This document shows positions 29,728 through 58,298 of a stretch of DNA of 64,000 bases, piece by piece. A model generated the notes under the pieces. The model ran no database searches. It saw only the letters and a program-made list of their open reading frames with translations, and had not been told where the DNA came from. The position numbers and the translations under genes were made by a program. Origin of the DNA: Pseudoalteromonas sp. R3 (lineage in GTDB: Bacteria > Pseudomonadota > Gammaproteobacteria > Enterobacterales > Alteromonadaceae); NCBI RefSeq assembly GCF_004014715.1, contig NZ_CP034835.1, positions 2,666,001-2,730,000 of the forward strand, in the 5' to 3' direction. Positions within the stretch are counted from its first letter, which is position 1; every line of letters begins with the position of its first letter.

Positions 29728-30216
29728 TTAGACTTTCTTGGTGATGGCTGGGCCTGTTGGTCCACAATGATATATTGATGTGCTTTTTGACTTATGCTTA
29801 CCCCAACCTTCTTCTACATCTTTGTATAAAATATTACATTTTTTCCCTTTCTTATATTGCTCTCCCTTATAGAACCATCTAGGTCCAGACTCGTATATAC
29901 CCAATGGAACCTCTCCAGAACCCTTAACCGAGTCAGGTACCTTGGCTTCTAATGCTGTATCATTCTGGATCTTATATTTAGCGCCCCATCCATCGTGGTA
30001 ATGTTTTCGAGCACTCGTCTCAACGATTTTACTCGTTCTTAATTGTAGGGGGAGAACGCCACTGCTTGTCGCTTCTTTTGATTTCCTTTGAGTGATAGCT
30101 TCAGGTCGATTATCCACAAGCCCAAAACCCTGCTTCTTGCTACTCTTCTTCTGAGTTGCAGTATTAGCCACGGTACCGCCTTTATTCACATGAGATTTCT
30201 CTATTTGTGTATACAT
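29728..30216 (-). CDS. Small protein with eCIS-associated leader motif
   Basis: A 162-residue protein of unknown function. Residues 31-46 read GFGLVDNRPEAITQRK, the VDNRPEA.xQRK leader that I know from the N-terminus of eCIS-core (DUF4157) proteins and other putative cargo of extracellular contractile injection systems. The rest (after SSGVLPLQLRTSK) is a lysine- and tyrosine-rich domain of about 105 residues with two cysteines (KKCNILY, YHCGPTGP) that I cannot assign. There is no signal peptide and no membrane helix. AAGG lies seven bases before the ATG. No eCIS structural genes are in the window. A toxin or cargo role is inference. Confidence 0.65.
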   Translation of the reverse strand: MYTQIEKSHVNKGGTVANTATQKKSSKKQGFGLVDNRPEAITQRKSKEATSSGVLPLQLRTSKIVETSARKHYHDGWGAKYKIQNDTALEAKVPDSVKGSGEVPLGIYESGPRWFYKGEQYKKGKKCNILYKDVEEGWGKHKSKSTSIYHCGPTGPAITKKV

Positions 30217-31873: not shown

Positions 31874-32337
31874 AAATACGTTCCTTTTAAATGGACAGCT
31901 CAGGGCCATTAATAATCTGATAGCAAAGAAATTTCCCACACTTGCCACGCGTTATTTATATGTGCCCTGTCTTTGGCATTTGGCCTGAGCAAAGGTTAAT
32001 CAATTAACAGTGAAAAGGTATTACACATTATTACAAGCGACTGACAGCCAGGGACTACCTTGAGGCTGCATAATTCTGCTATTGAGCTGTACTAGGTTGG
32101 GGGAGGTTACACTGCTTATATGAGCGATCCGTTAAGCAACATTTACAGCAAAAGATGTGCGACGAACACAACGGGAAATACAGTAATAATATTTGGTATC
32201 GGTTGGCTAACCTGCTTTTTCCTTGCTGTTGGCATAGTCCATTGTCCTCGAGCCTTTGAGCGTGTTCTATGCGTACATACCTTTACAAAAGTACGCCATT
32301 TTTAGGTGGGTGTCGCTTGTTTTCTTTAGAAGTTTGC
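31874..32337. other. Intergenic region between amidase and cassette array
   Basis: About 460 bp. Apart from the palindrome above I see no gene, and no attC site that would close the last cassette. A 61-residue frame from 32120 has only a distant purine-rich site and no family resemblance. Confidence 0.5.
31994..32007. promoter_or_regulatory. Short palindrome upstream of the amidase gene
   Basis: GTTAATCAATTAAC has six-base arms around CA and lies 120 bp before the amidase start. Possible operator; no regulator is known. Confidence 0.3.
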
Positions 32338-32790
32338 TCACCTAGTGCTCCGACTTTCCCTTTTCGCGTCATGTGGGAAACAGTTTGTATACGCACGAGC
32401 GACATGACTGTTGCCATTGTCATCTATGACTACACAAACGAGATTGCACGGATTTCCCAATGCACTCCGCCAATTGTGATGACGATCCTCATATTCTGCT
32501 CCAAATTCAACATAAATGTATGCTGAGCGAACCCATTCAAACGGAATTGAATGTTTTACAAGCAACCCTTTAAACATCTTTGAATAGCGTTCAGTCATGA
32601 GGTCAAAGTGCGGGTAATGTGGAACAATCTGTTGGGAGCAAAGGTCTATTGAAACACACTTGCTTTGAAGGTGGTCTACGGACAGGTAAAGCTTACCGAT
32701 ACTCCAATAACCTTCAACATCATTGTTTCTACTCCGAAACGAGCCAATAATACCGCTTGCAATGCTACCTAGTTTTCTCCTGCGTCCCAT
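32338..32790 (-). CDS. Cassette gene 4: hypothetical protein
   Basis: A 150-residue protein with no family I recognise. It begins with a basic stretch (MGRRRKLGSIASGI) and has mixed alpha/beta composition without a clear signal peptide. TAGGA precedes the ATG by six bases. Upstream it abuts attC 1 (32806-32908), so it is the last cassette, but no attC follows its stop. The C-terminal end (KRESRSTR) may therefore be altered. Confidence 0.6.
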   Translation of the reverse strand: MGRRRKLGSIASGIIGSFRSRNNDVEGYWSIGKLYLSVDHLQSKCVSIDLCSQQIVPHYPHFDLMTERYSKMFKGLLVKHSIPFEWVRSAYIYVEFGAEYEDRHHNWRSALGNPCNLVCVVIDDNGNSHVARAYTNCFPHDAKRESRSTR

Positions 32791-32805
32791 ATTTATTCCT
32801 AAAAC

Positions 32806-32908
32806 TTCTAACGCCCCAATCAGGTTTTTTTAATCGTTGGCTATCATGTGAAGCGAAGCGGAACCCAGCCAACGATTAAAAGTCCCTGCCTGCATTGGCT
32901 TGTTAGTC
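32806..32908. repeat. attC recombination site 1
   Basis: Outer boxes CTAAC (32808-32812) and GTTAG (32902-32906). Next come CCAATCAGG and CCTGCATTGG, complementary except for one extra G, the extrahelical base typical of attC. The interior is a 14-base inverted repeat (TTTAATCGTTGGCT / AGCCAACGATTAAA). The gene at 32910 ends TGA just outside the box. Confidence 0.85.
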
Positions 32909-32909
32909 A

Positions 32910-33317
32910 TCACTTACTTAATGTCGGATTTTCTTTAACTATTTGTGTAGATACAACCTTCGAATAACCAACACCGCCAAAGTATAAAGGGTAAGAAACA
33001 ATTTCAGCTTCTAAGGTATATCCTTTTTTTAGCATATCGTGAGGGTTTTCGGGCCAGAGTTTGGCATGGTCTTCCCGCGAAATGTATAGAGGTGATTGGT
33101 CAATAATTCTGGCTACTCTATTTCCCATTAGCTCTTCGTATAGCTGCCGGTTGTTTAAGTTCAATTCTAAGAACTTATAGTGAACAATTCCTCTTGTAGT
33201 AATTAATTGGCCAGAAAAGCTCGTACGGTACAAAATCGAGCTAATAGAAAACCAACCAATTAAAACGGCTAAAACTCCGATTGATATCCACTTTAAAATT
33301 TTAAGTACAATGTTCAC
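32910..33317 (-). CDS. Cassette gene 3: membrane-anchored hypothetical protein
   Basis: A 135-residue protein with one N-terminal membrane helix (WISIGVLAVLIGWFSISSILY) and a polar domain of about 105 residues outside. I recognise no family. It starts with GTG only about ten bases into the cassette, so it has little room for a ribosome site. It lies between attC 1 and attC 2. Confidence 0.65.
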   Translation of the reverse strand: MNIVLKILKWISIGVLAVLIGWFSISSILYRTSFSGQLITTRGIVHYKFLELNLNNRQLYEELMGNRVARIIDQSPLYISREDHAKLWPENPHDMLKKGYTLEAEIVSYPLYFGGVGYSKVVSTQIVKENPTLSK

Positions 33318-33324
33318 AGGTGAT

Positions 33325-33383
33325 TTCTAACGCCTAAAGCACAGGCGCAGCTTTGCTGTGTCCTGTGCCTTTACTTGTTAAGT
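33325..33383. repeat. attC recombination site 2
   Basis: A short attC of about 59 bp. Outer boxes CTAAC (33327-33331) and GTTAA (33377-33381); inner arms TAAAGCACAGG and CCTGTGCCTTTA match except for one extra G. The stop codon of the next gene (TAA at 33371-33373) lies inside it. Confidence 0.85.
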
Positions 33384-34129
33384 GATCTTTTGGCATATAC
33401 TTTCAAAACCCACTGTATTAGCTGATAGAACCAGATACCAGGAACCACTACCCCGGCCAAACCTACCATAAAGTTACTCCAAGACGACATACTATAAAAC
33501 GCTGCATACAATATTAAGGCCTGAAATGTTAGAGCAGAAACCAAAGTTGCAGCACCTGCTTTACCAGATAACCAACGACCAAACCAGATAACTGACACAA
33601 CTAGACAGACTAAGGAGACTATTAGGCTTAGCCAATCAAGAGTTCGCCACATTAAATCACGTAAATATGCATCTCTTACTTCACCCTCCCAACCTTCTAC
33701 GATGGAAGACATACTATTGCCGGTTAAAACTTTCAGTTTTGGTTCAATATAACTATGCTTCGCTTCGTCTGATACGTAAGACAAGTACTCGTCGTAACTA
33801 TTAAATGTTGTTTTTCCAGACCAGTATCTAATTGGAATTGTTAGCTCAAATATTACACCACTTTCGATAGATTCATATTTCAAAACCTCATGTTCTAAGA
33901 CCTTTAAAGCCCAGCTAGGAGGGGTAATGATTGTTGGGCGACGCGAACAAGCTGTACTCGCCTTAACCTCATTTATATAAAGTATCTCTTTGCAACCATT
34001 CGAATTACATTCACCTATGATGCGATCGCTCATTGTTGCGCAAGACAATGCTAAGCATACATTTGGAGCCCATAGGAAAAATAACAAGGTTAATATGGAT
34101 GTATTGTTCAAGGTGCGCACTCTCTTCAC
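33371..34129 (-). CDS. Cassette gene 2: multi-pass membrane hypothetical protein
   Basis: About 252 residues. A signal peptide or first helix (ILTLLFFLWAPNVCLALS) is followed by a cysteine-bearing ectodomain of about 130 residues (CNSNGCKEI, ACSRRP) and about three C-terminal helices (LSLIVSLVCLVVSVIWFG, LVSALTFQALILYAAFY, VGLAGVVVPGIWFYQLI). No family is recognised. The start is uncertain: GTG 34129 is at the cassette edge; TTG about 34111 has GAAGAGAG before it. Confidence 0.6.
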   Translation of the reverse strand: MKRVRTLNNTSILTLLFFLWAPNVCLALSCATMSDRIIGECNSNGCKEILYINEVKASTACSRRPTIITPPSWALKVLEHEVLKYESIESGVIFELTIPIRYWSGKTTFNSYDEYLSYVSDEAKHSYIEPKLKVLTGNSMSSIVEGWEGEVRDAYLRDLMWRTLDWLSLIVSLVCLVVSVIWFGRWLSGKAGAATLVSALTFQALILYAAFYSMSSWSNFMVGLAGVVVPGIWFYQLIQWVLKVYAKRSLNK

Positions 34130-34229
34130 TTAACGCCTCGCTTAACCGGCGCAAAGTAGCAGGCTAAAATTAGCGACGAAGGAGCGCAAGCCTGCTGTTT
34201 TGCGTCCTTTGGTTTAAGCGTTTGTTAGG
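34129..34229. repeat. attC recombination site 3
   Basis: Outer boxes CTTAAC (34129-34134) and GTTAGG (34224-34229). Inner arms CGCTTAACC and GGTTTAAGCG pair with one extra base. The long middle folds through GCGCAAA/TTTGCG and AGCAGGCT/AGCCTGCT. About 100 bp, ending three bases from the TGA of the next gene. Confidence 0.85.
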
Positions 34230-34231
34230 TT

Positions 34232-34756
34232 TCAAATACACCGATTATCTATATTGAGATATCCCGATATATCGTTTTTGCCTAAGTGACTCATTTCATC
34301 TAACTCAGCGTTTAACTTGTCTAGCCACCAATGTGCTTCAGCTTTAGAAATTTCTATTAAGCCACCCCAAACAATAAAATATCGCGTGATGCCTTTTTCG
34401 ATTTTAATACTCCCCCATTTATCAGCATCGCCAGTCTTTTGACCTCCCATATAAAATTGAGCTTGAATATCATAAGCTCCAGGACAAAGGTTAAATGTTA
34501 CATAGTCTGCTTTATACAACTTAATCTTTGACGAAGGATAGAGGTTATTTAAAAACTCAATATTCTTAAAGTCTCCCCTTAGGGGCCCCCAATAAAAGGT
34601 TGGCGGATCTATTAGAACTAAATTGGCTAAGTTCTCAATTTTATGGTTTTTAAAATTAGAGCTAGGAGTGAAATGTTCCAACTTTGTAATTGATGGGCGA
34701 CTAAGCGAACAACCGCTAATCATTAAACCTAACAAAATTAAAATAGCTACTCTCAT
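34232..34756 (-). CDS. Cassette gene 1: lipoprotein of unknown function
   Basis: A 174-residue predicted lipoprotein: MRVAILILLGLMISGCSLSRP has a clear lipobox ending in Cys16. The remaining 158 residues contain LCPGAYDIQAQFYMGGQK and a tryptophan-rich stretch (YFIVWGGLIE, AHWWLDK); the middle recalls small beta-sandwich lipoproteins that respond to peptidoglycan or stress, but I assign no family. Low GC compared with flanking core genes. It begins within the first cassette, bounded by the box at 34769-34774. Confidence 0.65.
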   Translation of the reverse strand: MRVAILILLGLMISGCSLSRPSITKLEHFTPSSNFKNHKIENLANLVLIDPPTFYWGPLRGDFKNIEFLNNLYPSSKIKLYKADYVTFNLCPGAYDIQAQFYMGGQKTGDADKWGSIKIEKGITRYFIVWGGLIEISKAEAHWWLDKLNAELDEMSHLGKNDISGYLNIDNRCI

Positions 34757-34768
34757 TTTCGATAGAAA

Positions 34769-34800
34769 CCTAACAGCTTATTAGCGTGAATGCCGGTTAG
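34769..34800. repeat. Cassette boundary, attI-like or truncated attC
   Basis: On the minus strand CTAACC...GTTAGG spans 32 bp and provides the recombination box at the start of cassette 1. The interior is not self-complementary like the other three sites, so it may be an attI core or a degraded attC. Confidence 0.5.
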
Positions 34801-35262
34801 AACCAATCTCCAAAGCCCAACCACGCTACCACTAATAAAATTTATTTATAATAATTACAATAACCTACCACCATTGCTTTCATTGCTCAAGCCAAAACGG
34901 CTTTGTTGAAACCGAGCCTTGTTCATAGCGAGACTTGGGGTCTCGTTATGTAAAACTACTAACCTTTTGAATCTGATTAACTTAAATCGCTGCTTCACTT
35001 AAACGAGACCTTCAAGCCCGGAGAAAGCGAGAAATTTGACTTGGTAATTAGCCGCATTCACTTACACCTGTATAAATAAACAGCACTAGAGTGAAGATGT
35101 CTTATTCACTTTTTTGGAATCTGTCCGTATGAGCCTAGGACAAGACACTACAGCCTCAAAACAGAGAAAAGTTATCTGTACTGGATTAAAAATATTACCT
35201 CTGGCAGTGAAGACTTGGCCGCATTCATGCCAATTAATAGAAAACGTCAGGGAAAATAAAAG
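34801..35262. other. Intergenic region beside the cassette array
   Basis: About 460 bp of low-GC sequence. This is where an integron integrase gene might be expected, but no frame on either strand encodes one. The only structure I note is a small palindrome CGAGACTTGGGGTCTCG near 34939-34955. Confidence 0.6.
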
Positions 35263-35289
35263 CCCGGCTAACCTAGCCGGGCTTTGTAA
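35263..35289 (-). terminator. Intrinsic terminator of the oxidoreductase gene
   Basis: AAAGCCCGGCTA-acc-TAGCCGGGCTTT, a strong 12-bp stem with T-run on the minus strand after the stop at 35310. Confidence 0.85.
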
Positions 35290-35309
35290 CTCATAAATAT
35301 CGTGTCGGT

Positions 35310-36317
35310 CTAATCGTGCGTGATGCGGATCACTGGGCGTTGCTGGCAGGTTTTCCCAAGCAAGCAGCTTAGTGCGTCGCGCACGGTATCGACGCTAAAG
35401 TCGAGCAGTTTCACCTCGGGGGCTTTGATGCGGCCGTTGCTGACGTCATCAAGTAACTGGCGGCCCATAAAACACAGGTGCTGCTGGGCGCACAGGCTGT
35501 TGGCCATCCAGGCGCCGGCGACCGAGACCACGCCGATGTTGGGCGCTTTCTCAAACAGCAGCTCTTCGGGAATAGTGCCAAAGCCATTGAGGCAGGCAAT
35601 GCGGCCGCAAAACCGTAAATGACGCAGGTCATCCAAAAAGGAGTCGCCGCCTTGTGTATTCAGGATACAGTCAAAGCCGCCTGGGCCCATTTCTCGCTTG
35701 ATCTGTTCACATACCGACTCCGACTCGCAGTCGAACACCCAGTCTGCACCGAGTTTACTCAGTCTTTTGTGATGCTCTTTCTGTGCAAAGGCGAACACCT
35801 GAGCACCGCGCTGCTTGGCGTATTGCACGGCAAAGTGTGCAACAGCGCCTTGTGCGCTGTTGATGGCCAGCGAGTCGCCGTCCTGCACCTGCATTTTATC
35901 CAAAGCCAGCAGTGCCGCCATGCCCGCATTGGGCAATGACACCGCCACTTCGCCACTCATGCCATCGGGTACTTCCGACACCGCGTGACTGGGCACAACC
36001 GCGTACTCTTTCAGCATCCCCTGCTCTGCCAGACTGGCATTAAACAATACCCGGCTGCCTTTGGGGGGAAATACCCCTTTAGCAGCTGAGACCACAGTGC
36101 CGACGGCATCCAGTCCCAAAATGTGCGGGTATTGCCACTGGCAAAATCCGTCTTTCGCCATCCGTGCGTCCAGGTGATTCAGGGCCACATAATCTATGGC
36201 AACCAGTAACTCGTTATCTCCCGGCACTGGCATAGCGTGCTCTGCCATCGCTAAGTCAAACTCAGCGCCACATTGACGCAGCTCCAGTGCTCGCATGGTG
36301 GTTTTTTCGACTGACAT
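35310..36317 (-). CDS. Quinone oxidoreductase-like zinc-independent MDR protein
   Basis: About 335 residues of the medium-chain dehydrogenase/reductase superfamily. Seen are an N-terminal GroES-like part (VAIDYVALNHLDARMAKDG, LGLDAVGTVV) and a Rossmann part (LAINSAQGAVAHFAVQYAKQRGA, shortened to QGAVAHFAVQYAKQRGA). The catalytic zinc ligands of alcohol dehydrogenase are absent, so a NADPH-quinone or enone reductase role is likely. ATG 36317 has GGAG upstream. The start region is duplicated: a seven-residue block VEKTTM occurs twice, so ATG 36296 is also possible. Confidence 0.85.
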   Translation of the reverse strand: MSVEKTTMRALELRQCGAEFDLAMAEHAMPVPGDNELLVAIDYVALNHLDARMAKDGFCQWQYPHILGLDAVGTVVSAAKGVFPPKGSRVLFNASLAEQGMLKEYAVVPSHAVSEVPDGMSGEVAVSLPNAGMAALLALDKMQVQDGDSLAINSAQGAVAHFAVQYAKQRGAQVFAFAQKEHHKRLSKLGADWVFDCESESVCEQIKREMGPGGFDCILNTQGGDSFLDDLRHLRFCGRIACLNGFGTIPEELLFEKAPNIGVVSVAGAWMANSLCAQQHLCFMGRQLLDDVSNGRIKAPEVKLLDFSVDTVRDALSCLLGKTCQQRPVIRITHD

Positions 36318-36473
36318 GGTGGTTTTCTCCACTTTTCGACCCTTTTGAGGCCGGATTGCCCATAACTTTAACTTTCCGATTATGGGCAAAACTTCGCAAT
36401 TGTTGCTATTAAACCATCTTGGTCTCTGTCAAACAACTCAATATTGTGACAGGTGTTTAAATCCTGTTAACGG

Positions 36474-56051: not shown

Positions 56052-56798
56052 TTATGCTTTTTTATCGACCAATATGCCGAGGCGAACAAACTGGCTCAGG
56101 GTTTGGACTGCCCCATTAATCAGGGTTTGCTCGTCAAACTGGCTAAACTGTTCGGCCAGTTGCTTAGCCAGCGCCCCTATGGTTATTCCAGGATTAACAA
56201 CAATATTTTGAATCAAAAGCGCGGTCATTGGATTTGTTTCGATGAATTGTACTTCAAATGTCCGGTCCCGATAAACAATAAAGCAATGGGGTCCTGACGG
56301 TTCATTGGGTTGATGGTCAATGCTTATCTGATGTACCGGATACTGGTAACTAACACTACGTGCGCTCTGAGCAAGATGCAACCCTGACAATTCTGACAAA
56401 GGCAGTGGTATAGGTGCCTCTTCCGTTGCTTCCTGAGCAATGGCTACTTCCAGCTCCGTCCATTCATAGTGAGCCAGTTCAAGCATGAAGGGAGGATCAG
56501 ACTGAGTTGCTGTATACTCTTGTTGCAAAAAGAACAAAAACTCGCGACTTATATCTAAAAAATAAGGAGACTGGCAATCATGCTGACTGAAAAATTCGCG
56601 CACCAAAGTTAACCAGGTTTGCTCCTCATATAGACTCTTTAATACGGGAAAAGTCGAAGCAACAAACCCCTCAATGTTATTAAAAAACAATTCCCTGTAA
56701 ATCTGCATACGACGATCTTCAATGCCCTCAGGCGCTGAATGGACATCTGGATTTTTAATATGAGCCATGAACTCAGCCTGAATTTGCTGAAACGACAT
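56052..56798 (-). CDS. hvfC: HvfC/BufC-type partner of an MNIO enzyme (DUF2063-like)
   Basis: A 248-residue protein starting [14 protein letters not shown], then IYRELFFNNIEGFVASTFPV, which fits the DUF2063/HvfC N-terminal domain, and a C-terminal winged-helix-like part (LIQNIVVNPGITIGALAKQL). It overlaps the HvfB stop by one base in TGATG, so it is translationally coupled. Known role of this family: recognition element that brings the precursor peptide to the MNIO enzyme. No catalytic motif of its own is seen. Confidence 0.88.
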   Translation of the reverse strand: MSFQQIQAEFMAHIKNPDVHSAPEGIEDRRMQIYRELFFNNIEGFVASTFPVLKSLYEEQTWLTLVREFFSQHDCQSPYFLDISREFLFFLQQEYTATQSDPPFMLELAHYEWTELEVAIAQEATEEAPIPLPLSELSGLHLAQSARSVSYQYPVHQISIDHQPNEPSGPHCFIVYRDRTFEVQFIETNPMTALLIQNIVVNPGITIGALAKQLAEQFSQFDEQTLINGAVQTLSQFVRLGILVDKKA

Positions 56799-57634
56799 CA
56801 GGCGATCCCCCTTTTGAGCTTATCAATACTCTGCACAGTATGGATCTGGTCAACTTCCTCAAGTAGTTGAGGTAATGGAGGAATATTAAAATCGCGTTCC
56901 AACAAGGTTGGAAACACACCATGTAGGCGGTAGGCTTCTTGCAATAATTGCCAAACAGGGTCGCACACCGCATCGCCATGGGTATCTACAAGCAAATCTT
57001 CTGCCTCAACATAATGCCCGGCGATATGACCATAAGCGATACGCTCACTGGGCATCGCCGCTAAAAATGCACCGGCATCATAACCATGATTAATTGAATT
57101 GACGTAGATGTTATTCACATCTAAGAGCAGATCACAGTCAGCTTCTTCGAGCACTGCTAAGGTAAAATCCTGCTCAGATAACTGCTGACCAGGCGCAGCA
57201 TAATAAGAGACATTCTCCACAGCTATACGACGCTCCAGTCTGTCTTGCACTTCTTTGATCCTTGCAGCAGTGTGCTTTACCGCCTCCTCTGTGAAGGGAA
57301 TAGGCATAAGGTCGTACATATGACCATCCCCGGAACAATAACTTAAGTGTTCGCTGTAGCAACGAATGTTATGTGTCGAGAAAAAGGTTTTCAGGTCGCT
57401 TACAAACTCAATATCTAATGGTGCAGGTGAACCGAGTGATAATGACAATCCATGGCAAACAAATGGGTGTCTCGCAGTCAACTCCGAAAACTGAGCAGCG
57501 AATTTGCCACCGAGCGTCATCCAGTTTTCGGGCGCGACCTCGTAAAAATCGACCTGCTGAGGGGGAGTAGCCAAAATATCATCTAACATTTCTCGCCTAA
57601 GGCCCATGCCAACCCTGCCAAACGGTTTATTCAT
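56798..57634 (-). CDS. hvfB: MNIO (DUF692) oxidative peptide-modifying enzyme, HvfB/BufB type
   Basis: About 278 residues, full length. MNIO family motifs in order: [70 protein letters not shown] and VDTHGDAV. These carry the His/Asp/Glu/Asn ligands for two or three iron ions in a TIM barrel. MNIO enzymes oxidise cysteine in RiPP precursors to heterocyclic groups. ATG 57634 has AAGGAG five bases upstream. It lies between the precursor and HvfC genes. Confidence 0.9.
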
Positions 57635-57659
57635 TATCACTCCTTAGCCAGGTTAGCTG

Positions 57660-58133
57660 TTAAGCGTGACCGCCGCACTTACCTTCGCCGCACTTGCCTT
57701 CTTTTTTAGCTTTACCGCCACATTTACCTTCGCCGCATTTGCCTTCTTTTTTAGCTTTACCGCCACATTTACCTTCGCCGCATTTGCCTTCTTTTTTAGC
57801 TTTGCCGCCACACTTGCCTTCGCCGCACTTGCCCTCTTTTTTACCTTTCGCGTCGCCGCCGCATTTACCTTCTCCGCATTTTCCCTCTTTTTTGCCTTTC
57901 GCGTCACCGCCGCATTTACCTTCTCCGCATTTTCCTTCTTTTTTGCCTTTAGCATCACCGCCGCATTTACCTTCTCCACATTTTCCTTCTGCGGCGTCTA
58001 ACTGGTAACCCGCCGTCATTTGCTCAAAGCTAAACGGATTCGCCGCCGCTTCAGGAGCGCTAAATGTTGCGGCAGTCACTACAGCCGCGCCCAGTGTCAT
58101 TGCAAGTGTGTTAGTTTTCTTTACTGATTTCAT
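57660..58133 (-). CDS. hvfA: HvfA-like RiPP precursor with 14 EGKCG motifs
   Basis: A 157-residue precursor: signal peptide (MKSVKKTNTLAMTLGAAVVT, cleaved near AAA-NPF), a short region, then seven units from about residue 49 to the end. Each unit is EGKCGEGKCGG plus a spacer: DAKGKK in units 1-3, KAKK in units 4-6 and a terminal HA in unit 7. That gives 14 cysteines, all in EGKCG. HvfA and bufferin precursors carry the same motif, whose cysteine is the site of MNIO modification and metal binding. ATG 58133 is the natural start; the longer frame to 58178 would bury the signal peptide. Confidence 0.88.
   Translation of the reverse strand: MKSVKKTNTLAMTLGAAVVTAATFSAPEAAANPFSFEQMTAGYQLDAAEGKCGEGKCGGDAKGKKEGKCGEGKCGGDAKGKKEGKCGEGKCGGDAKGKKEGKCGEGKCGGKAKKEGKCGEGKCGGKAKKEGKCGEGKCGGKAKKEGKCGEGKCGGHA
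57663..57989. repeat. Tandem repeats in the HvfA-like coding region
   Basis: Seven consecutive units, three of about 51 bp and three of about 45 bp plus a short last one. They differ by silent changes (for example cgccgcatt versus cgccgcact), so they are not newly duplicated as one block but remain similar enough to recombine. This is protein-coding repetition, not CRISPR. Confidence 0.8.
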
Positions 58134-58298
58134 GTTGTTCTCTCTCAATCGGTAGCAATAAAAATGAATGATTCGCATAGTAGACCACGGACCGAAGATA
58201 TTTATTTCAGTGTTTGAGAAATTTTTATCTCCATTTCCCTATTAATAAATCACCTTCTCTCGTATAGAATAGCGCGAATTTTTTCTGGTGCGGTAATA

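Follow-up and report, generated by a model that had tools for sequence, protein, structure and literature searches.

How does an array of integron cassettes come to lie in a chromosome without an integrase of its own? Integrons are described as an integrase gene (intI), an attI site and a cassette array in one place, and clusters of attC sites lacking integron integrases (CALINs) as their probable leftovers. The question is raised by four minus-strand genes of Pseudoalteromonas sp. R3, which alternate with three attC sites, as an earlier note on this DNA had recognized, in a stretch of 64,000 nucleotides called the window here (C2:2666001-2730000, contig NZ_CP034835.1; the genome has 5.82 Mb and two contigs, of 4.50 and 1.33 Mb). 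The earlier note named the array a CALIN, which is right in that it has no working integrase in cis but incomplete, since an attI, a LexA-type box and a stub of intI still adjoin the array; the label also takes no account of another broken intI and of other arrays with an attI at their head elsewhere in the genome. It is likely that the array is a decapitated integron, whose solo attI would have stayed usable after deletion of intI and been served in trans. Genomes and loci are cited below by working numbers (G and L).

An attI site and an intI stub at the head of the array

Five features lie between cassette 1 and the neighboring dehydrogenase gene:

34774-35085, minus strand: attI leader, type B (putative docking platform), with the crossover G^TT between 34774 and 34773 and the array to the left
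35068-35083: LexA-type SOS box CTGTATAAATAAACAG, pattern CTGTN8ACAG, upstream of intI
35097-35190, plus strand: intI 5′ stub of about 31 codons, frameshifted; similarity to the L074 intI ends at 35190
35191-35257: 67-bp segment between the intI stub and the dehydrogenase flank, matching only itself in the loci fetched at that stage
35259-35285, minus strand: terminator of the dehydrogenase gene (35310-36389), from a terminator scan

When the 554 bp before cassette 1 were aligned to the loci fetched at that stage, one strong match was obtained, locus L074 of the sister genome G059, which carries attI and the start of intI; 34772-35190 is 83% identical to L074 8256-8677 over 424 bp, and the match starts within 2 bases of the recombination point. 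The same 554 bp otherwise matched the dehydrogenase border and, weakly, the intI starts of L070, L071 and L083. The pattern CTGTN8ACAG occurs three times in the window against 1.28 expected by chance, which is weak alone, and stands at the same position before the L074 intI. Homology to the G059 attI marks the head of the array as a putative attI, and the border before cassette 1 is this attI, not a site that is neither attI nor attC. Because the attI leader, the LexA-type box and the intI 5′ stub adjoin cassette 1, the array appears, on sequence grounds, to be a recognizable chromosomal integron decapitated by loss of nearly all of intI. The earlier statement that no integrase lies nearby holds for a whole gene but not for the stub of about 31 codons at 35097-35190.

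attC sites and cassettes

From the attI leftwards, the array consists of the following cassettes, with borders 1-3 taken from the R′ boxes:

34134-34773, minus strand: cassette 1, gene 34232-34756, 174 aa
34128-34230, minus strand: attC1, 82.3 bits, E 2e-18 in model R1
33331-34133, minus strand: cassette 2, gene 33371-34129, 252 aa
33325-33383, minus strand: attC2, short (59 nt), 32.6 bits, E 2.5e-5 in R1
32812-33330, minus strand: cassette 3, gene 32910-33317, 135 aa
32806-32908, minus strand: attC3, 68.5 bits, E 8.6e-15 in R1
32326-32811, minus strand: cassette 4, truncated, gene 32338-32790, 150 aa, with no attC behind the gene
32113-32325: repeat fragment linked to a REP-associated (IS200-like) transposase, with 79-83% identical pieces in L063, L064 and L066

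The attC sites lie where the earlier note had placed them, to within one base, and the covariance model check that it called for gave hits for all three, so that the outcome of no hit did not occur. This model, R1, was trained on 26 attC sites from nine loci in other genomes of the genus, with the window and the R3 genome excluded; each training locus has an intI, either intact or broken, and the author's own scanner was used to choose the sites. The R1 consensus has 26 pairs, 19 of which changed on both sides with pairing kept. Its E-values are rough (short calibration), and the window sites were scored in a 230-kb search. Rfam gave no match at gathering thresholds. The plus strands of attC1-3, folded as single-stranded DNA, reached z = -2.44, -4.02 and -4.66, respectively, against shuffled sequences. 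Paired end boxes, imperfect hairpins and an attC orientation equal to that of the genes are all seen in the array, but the single extrahelical base ascribed to each site is too simple a description, several positions being unpaired in the folds. Stop codons do fall near the attC boxes, 2 bp before, 13 bp inside and 2 bp before R″ of attC1, attC2 and attC3, respectively. The start of cassette 1 (GTTAGGT) is the exact complement of its own R″ (ACCTAAC), as is that of cassette 2 (GTTAAGT; R″ ACTTAAC), and that of cassette 3 (GTTAGAA) is complementary to its R″ (GACTAAC) at 5 of 7 bases; by the border logic of cassettes, the bases past each G^TT cut belong to the next cassette. The window attI and these borders look regular and, as a prediction from the sequence, should be a substrate for a type B integrase.

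None of the four cassette products has a Pfam match over the cut-off or a match in PADLOC or NCBIfam. Three of them look membrane- or envelope-associated by eye, as had been noticed earlier: the N-terminus of product 1 resembles a lipoprotein signal, the C-terminal half of product 2 is hydrophobic and product 3 has a hydrophobic stretch at its N-terminus; product 4 does not look so. The protein search, which reaches only relatives with shared short exact words, gave for gene 1 one match, 97% identical, on a 1,041-bp JGI contig and for gene 2 nothing beyond the window's own protein. Gene 1 is present in the R3 genome only among the 108 searchable genomes of the genus (R3 counted in), and neither gene 1 nor gene 3 has a plasmid match.

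Gene 4 is more widespread. Its protein search gave 38 proteins, with full-length identities of up to 89%, and 87 encoding stretches were found in genome contigs, of which 80 were kept, from several phyla by their record titles. Four other genomes of the genus hold it at 30-34% identity, and it also occurs in eight plasmid records, with 83% identity in one of them and less than 37% in the other seven. In 10 of the 29 loci with its relatives (L075-L103), the gene has an attC hit (E up to 0.1) no more than 40 bp away. At the DNA level, the best three homologs, all from Vibrionaceae, are 87.8-92.1% identical over a stretch that begins 13-15 bp upstream of the start codon and ends at the stop. The gene of Vibrio tapetis (L076) is followed by TTCTAAC and then by a weak attC hit (E 0.029); the window has TTCTAA at the same point and then breaks, within 3 bases of the repeat start, 6 of the 7 bases of the R″ box of cassette 4 being left (32331-32326). 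Cassette 4 thus seems to have lost its attC by a cut inside attC4, because the V. tapetis homolog runs on into an attC and the window breaks at the repeat. The repeat pieces of L063, L064 and L066 end within 3 bases of 32325, and a similar piece is also present in L067; the gene beside the repeat in L064 has a Y1_Tnp match below the cut-off, and the name REP-associated rests on appearance.

Integrase genes in R3 and its relatives

The whole-genome search for intI that the earlier note had proposed was run. The integron-integrase family is found over its curated cut-off in 69 of the 99 genomes searched (relatives and R3), and all R3 hits are below it. The R3 genome holds one broken copy at C2:1150353-1151019, which is split over two frames and lacks about 76 model positions, covering 1-92 and 169-315; the other sub-cut-off hits are Xer-like and other recombinases, the nearest about 150 kb from the array. 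No functional intI was found in R3, the local copy being a stub and the other copy in the genome broken.

Nine genomes including R3 form the close clade, with 97-100% identity in the dehydrogenase next to the array, against at most 76% in all other genomes. Four of the nine (G033, G036, G041 and G100) have a stop-free, full-length intI, and that of G044 is stop-free without model positions 212-237. The intI copies of G000, G059, G122 and G123 all have stops, frameshifts or gaps.

Solo attI platforms across the genus

The attI leader of the window is one of many. Because the leader search scored at most six candidates per genome, its place counts are lower bounds: the type B leader has at least 49 rows at at least 47 places in the nine close genomes, and among these places 12 reach query position 391 or beyond, into intI, and 16 end at query 309-314, just before the intI start codon. 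Weak matches to the leader occur in ten further genomes, over the intI start in six of them and as short pieces in the other four. The R3 genome itself has four further type B places (one partial, one badly decayed) and a marginal 62-base hit, together with five places of a second kind of leader, type A.

Thirty-six leader copies were fetched: a set of 20, including the window, L074 and L021, and 16 type A-like copies from 11 genomes. All 74 distinct attC sites around them are on the array side; the other side has none, and is short in some loci (below 2 kb in L061, L066 and L189). The set of 20 has, within 5 kb and on the expected strand, 39 attC hits on the array side (38 distinct) and none on the other side. 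The set of 16 has 36 against 0, and three further calls there are the same sites in the mirror strand. In 30 of the 36 copies, at least one attC belongs to the copy itself. A broken intI is still present at two copies (L074 and L021), and the rest have a stub, a fragment or nothing by tblastn and blastn. Stubs occur at L061, L066, L183, L187 and L201, the last being the only one found by tblastn among the 16 type A-like copies, and an internal intI segment is kept in L181 and L185.

The idea that the leader is a neat 312-bp mobile unit was considered and is weakened by the internal intI segment of L181 and L185 and by the stubs of other copies; these remnants speak more for deletion from fuller copies.

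Further attC clusters or single sites were seen in R3 at C2:2.059-2.065, 2.484-2.504, 3.019-3.025 and 3.332 Mb and at C1:0.822 and 1.004 Mb; five of these six places (not 3.019-3.025) have a type A or type B leader, and no intI was found there by tblastn. The whole-genome R1 search scored 150 of 1,262 candidates and missed the sites at 33325 and 1.1516 Mb, so that genome attC counts are lower bounds as well; pattern searches for attC gave 17+14 and 20+18 matches against 14+14 and 19+13 in controls, the known attC sites standing among many chance matches. A second, larger attC array lies beside a kinase-like gene and a glnS-like gene (L156/L157, R3 C2:2.544-2.558 Mb), at the position where G059 has intI; neither intI nor an attI leader was found there in R3, and nearby genes read, by eye, like a contractile tail cluster.

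Probable cassette turnover at shared platforms

Four sets of orthologous leader loci were compared between species (L178b/L188/L189; L182/L184/L186; L181/L185; L183/L187/L180, the leader of L180 being partly deleted). In all four, the junction of leader and flank and the right flank are common and 77-93% identical, and the cassette side (4-4.5 kb) has only short or displaced pieces in common. A two-gene block of 2,213 bp is 99.5% identical between L184, a solo attI locus of G122, and L067, the dehydrogenase locus of G033, where no intI was found. Both copies extend from GTTATAAG (GTT border) to GCGTTA, one of them preceded by attI and the other by an attC-like end, and the DNA outside is unrelated. 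Identity between G122 and G033 is 89% for the dehydrogenase gene and 86% for the L184 flank. Because the junction without intI is common to L182, L184 and L186, the L184 cassette should, by this comparison, postdate local intI loss, which is the main argument for capture in trans.

A 2.38-kb unit containing an IS91-family transposase gene and a tyrosine recombinase gene was also found twice in G059 (L074:5881-8258 and L182:5306-7683). The two copies are 97.5% identical, start exactly at the attI crossover and end in a 53-nt attC-like hairpin, so that the unit looks like a transposon built like a gene cassette. The hairpin of its L064 copy (z -1.34) is little better than shuffles, and R3 has a decayed copy of the unit at L157:348-1573.

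The dehydrogenase locus in sister genomes and other genes of the window

The conserved border of the variable locus lies at 35258 in seven of the eight close sister genomes and at 35276 in the eighth; two more distant genomes align only from 35463-35464. Between this border and about 29,500, attC and repeat pieces are all that the window has in common with the sister genomes. G044 and G122 have a type A intI stub (codons 1-69) against the dehydrogenase terminator, and G033, G036, G041, G059 and G123 have the end of an IS91-like cassette at this locus. attC hits (E <0.01) were obtained there in G033, G041, G044, G059 (a partial site), G122 and G123, and none in G100 or in the 1.8 kb visible of the G036 locus.

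Among the genes that the sister genomes carry at this locus, two of G033 (L067:9603-11729) encode a CAP12-type TIR protein and a RelA/SpoT-domain protein, respectively, and one of G059 (L064:10282-10908) is DndB/DpdB-like; in PADLOC, the remaining three of six sister genes matched no model. The presence of defense-family genes suggests phage defense cargo. Adjoining the variable locus in the window is a gene for a 162-aa product (29728-30216) with no Pfam match over the cut-off. Farther away, at 56052-58178, a Cys-rich repeat protein (GEGKCGG repeats) is followed by two genes that look, by eye, like those for a DUF692 enzyme and its partner, an arrangement found in clusters for copper-binding peptides.

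Weighing the explanations

In the reading of the array as a decapitated integron, the attC sites, the attI homology, the stub, the cassette borders and the genome search that found no intact intI are parts that can be read from the DNA itself. Once the local intI had been deleted, cassettes would still have been able to dock at the attI left behind, as at the many solo attI loci related to it, and they would have been added, removed or swapped in trans by an integrase whose gene lay elsewhere in the cell. The window array is probably frozen in R3, because the genome no longer encodes an intact-looking integrase, and would stay so unless one is acquired.

Several observations weigh against this reading. 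A consensus scan of 32000-35400, limited to one promoter type, found no minus-strand sigma-70-like promoter. Six of the 36 leader copies (L178b, L180, L188, L201, L202 and L205) have no attC of their own, although the L201 sequence ends about 150 bp after the leader, and the hit counted for L178b lies past the next leader; in L190, one array-side attC hit is in the opposite strand and 6.2 kb off, outside the 5-kb count. The stub of the window is type B and those of G044 and G122 at the same place are type A, so that the history of the locus, to judge from the stubs, does not seem to be simple descent. Finally, trans action in G000, G044, G059, G122 and G123 must be past or uncertain, because the intI genes of these five have stops, frameshifts or gaps, and G122 is the host of L184.

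Other explanations have to account for the same loci. First, each solo attI may once have belonged to a complete integron that captured its cassettes in cis before intI was lost separately at each place, the platforms being inert since. Several loci did once hold fuller copies, as is shown by their stubs and internal intI fragments; however, at orthologous loci the intI-less junction is common between species and yet the cassettes differ, and a cassette 99.5% identical in species that are 86-89% identical should have arrived after the shared junction had formed, which makes this course of events unlikely. Second, differences between the arrays of sister species could also reflect homologous recombination between strains that swaps whole arrays, keeps attI and flank and so mimics turnover, which is a further point against action in trans. 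Such recombination is common in bacteria generally, and it could have operated at all four orthologous sets, the L184 cassette apart; the 2.2-kb block of L184 and L067, however, sits at different loci with unrelated DNA outside both ends, and exchange of whole arrays is regarded as an improbable account. Third, the array may be an ordinary CALIN, in which an integrase put cassettes into an arbitrary site (attG-type) and which was never part of a local integron. The window does lack an intI gene, and insertion of this type is reported (discussed in PMC12444791 and PMC12901181; PMC numbers are those of PubMed Central), but the array has an attI at its head, followed by a LexA-type box and the 5′ coding sequence of intI, which is not expected of a random attG. 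The homology of attI and stub already appears to have largely refuted this explanation, and it is very unlikely. Last, the idea that the hairpins are terminators or chance palindromes between ordinary genes is scarcely credible: a first loose palindrome scan also flagged many false matches inside coding genes, and the covariance model was used instead, but R1 hits the sites after training outside R3, R″ boxes and cassette starts are complementary, attC hits lie beside gene 4 relatives and attC-related sites recur between cassettes in other species, the last being an outcome that speaks against terminators in the test set by the earlier note.

Comparison with known systems

Loot and co-workers reportedly described attG insertion of cassettes in 2024. 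Cassettes inserted at attG resemble those of the window in lying away from intI (PMC12444791; PMC12901181), but the acceptor here is a full attI leader and not a non-classical site. CALINs as degraded integrons and their mobilization in trans are ideas in print (PMC9024848; PMC12444791), and CALINs are described as mobilizable in trans by a functional IntI (PMC12444791). With three attC sites close together, where at least two make a CALIN, and no integrase gene nearby, the window array is like a CALIN as given in the parts available of PMC9024848; it differs in keeping attI and a 5′ intI stub, so that degradation is directly visible, and the target in trans would be the solo attI. The sedentary chromosomal integrons G059 L074 (intI with one stop) and G039 L070 share attC type and orientation with the window, and the attI type is as in G059, but the window has no complete intI and few cassettes.

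The Shewanella prophage M16-3 contains a complete integron and a CALIN that each begin with the same attI (PMC9892861), and is thus alike in having an attI-headed array without its own integrase, there beside a complete integron. M16-3 is, in the portion available, one pair in one cryptic prophage, whereas many loci, two attI types, many species and cassette turnover are involved here. Cassette clusters away from intI, partly at conserved places, are likewise known from Shewanella, as scattered CALINs and single attC sites, SALINs (PMC9229058), and from Xanthomonas, where CALINs occupy seven loci at conserved places of the chromosome (PMC12444791); in the available parts of both papers no attI is described at the cluster head, where one is present here. 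A search of the open-licence literature found no description of genus-wide solo attI platforms with cassette turnover, the nearest being the Shewanella prophage.

Implications

The route from integron to CALIN can be read here in the sequence, and many arrays in these genomes that would count as CALINs are headed by attI. With slightly more belief than doubt, the arrangement may be seen as a distributed integron, made up of one or two integrase genes and of solo attI platforms spread over both replicons, which sister species inherit in place and which are stocked in trans, each with different cassettes; loss of the integrase would then freeze all platforms at once, as in R3. If integrases do act in trans on solo attI sites, a single one is enough to supply many loci, a genome can dock more cassettes than its number of intI genes suggests and attI would be worth searching for besides intI.

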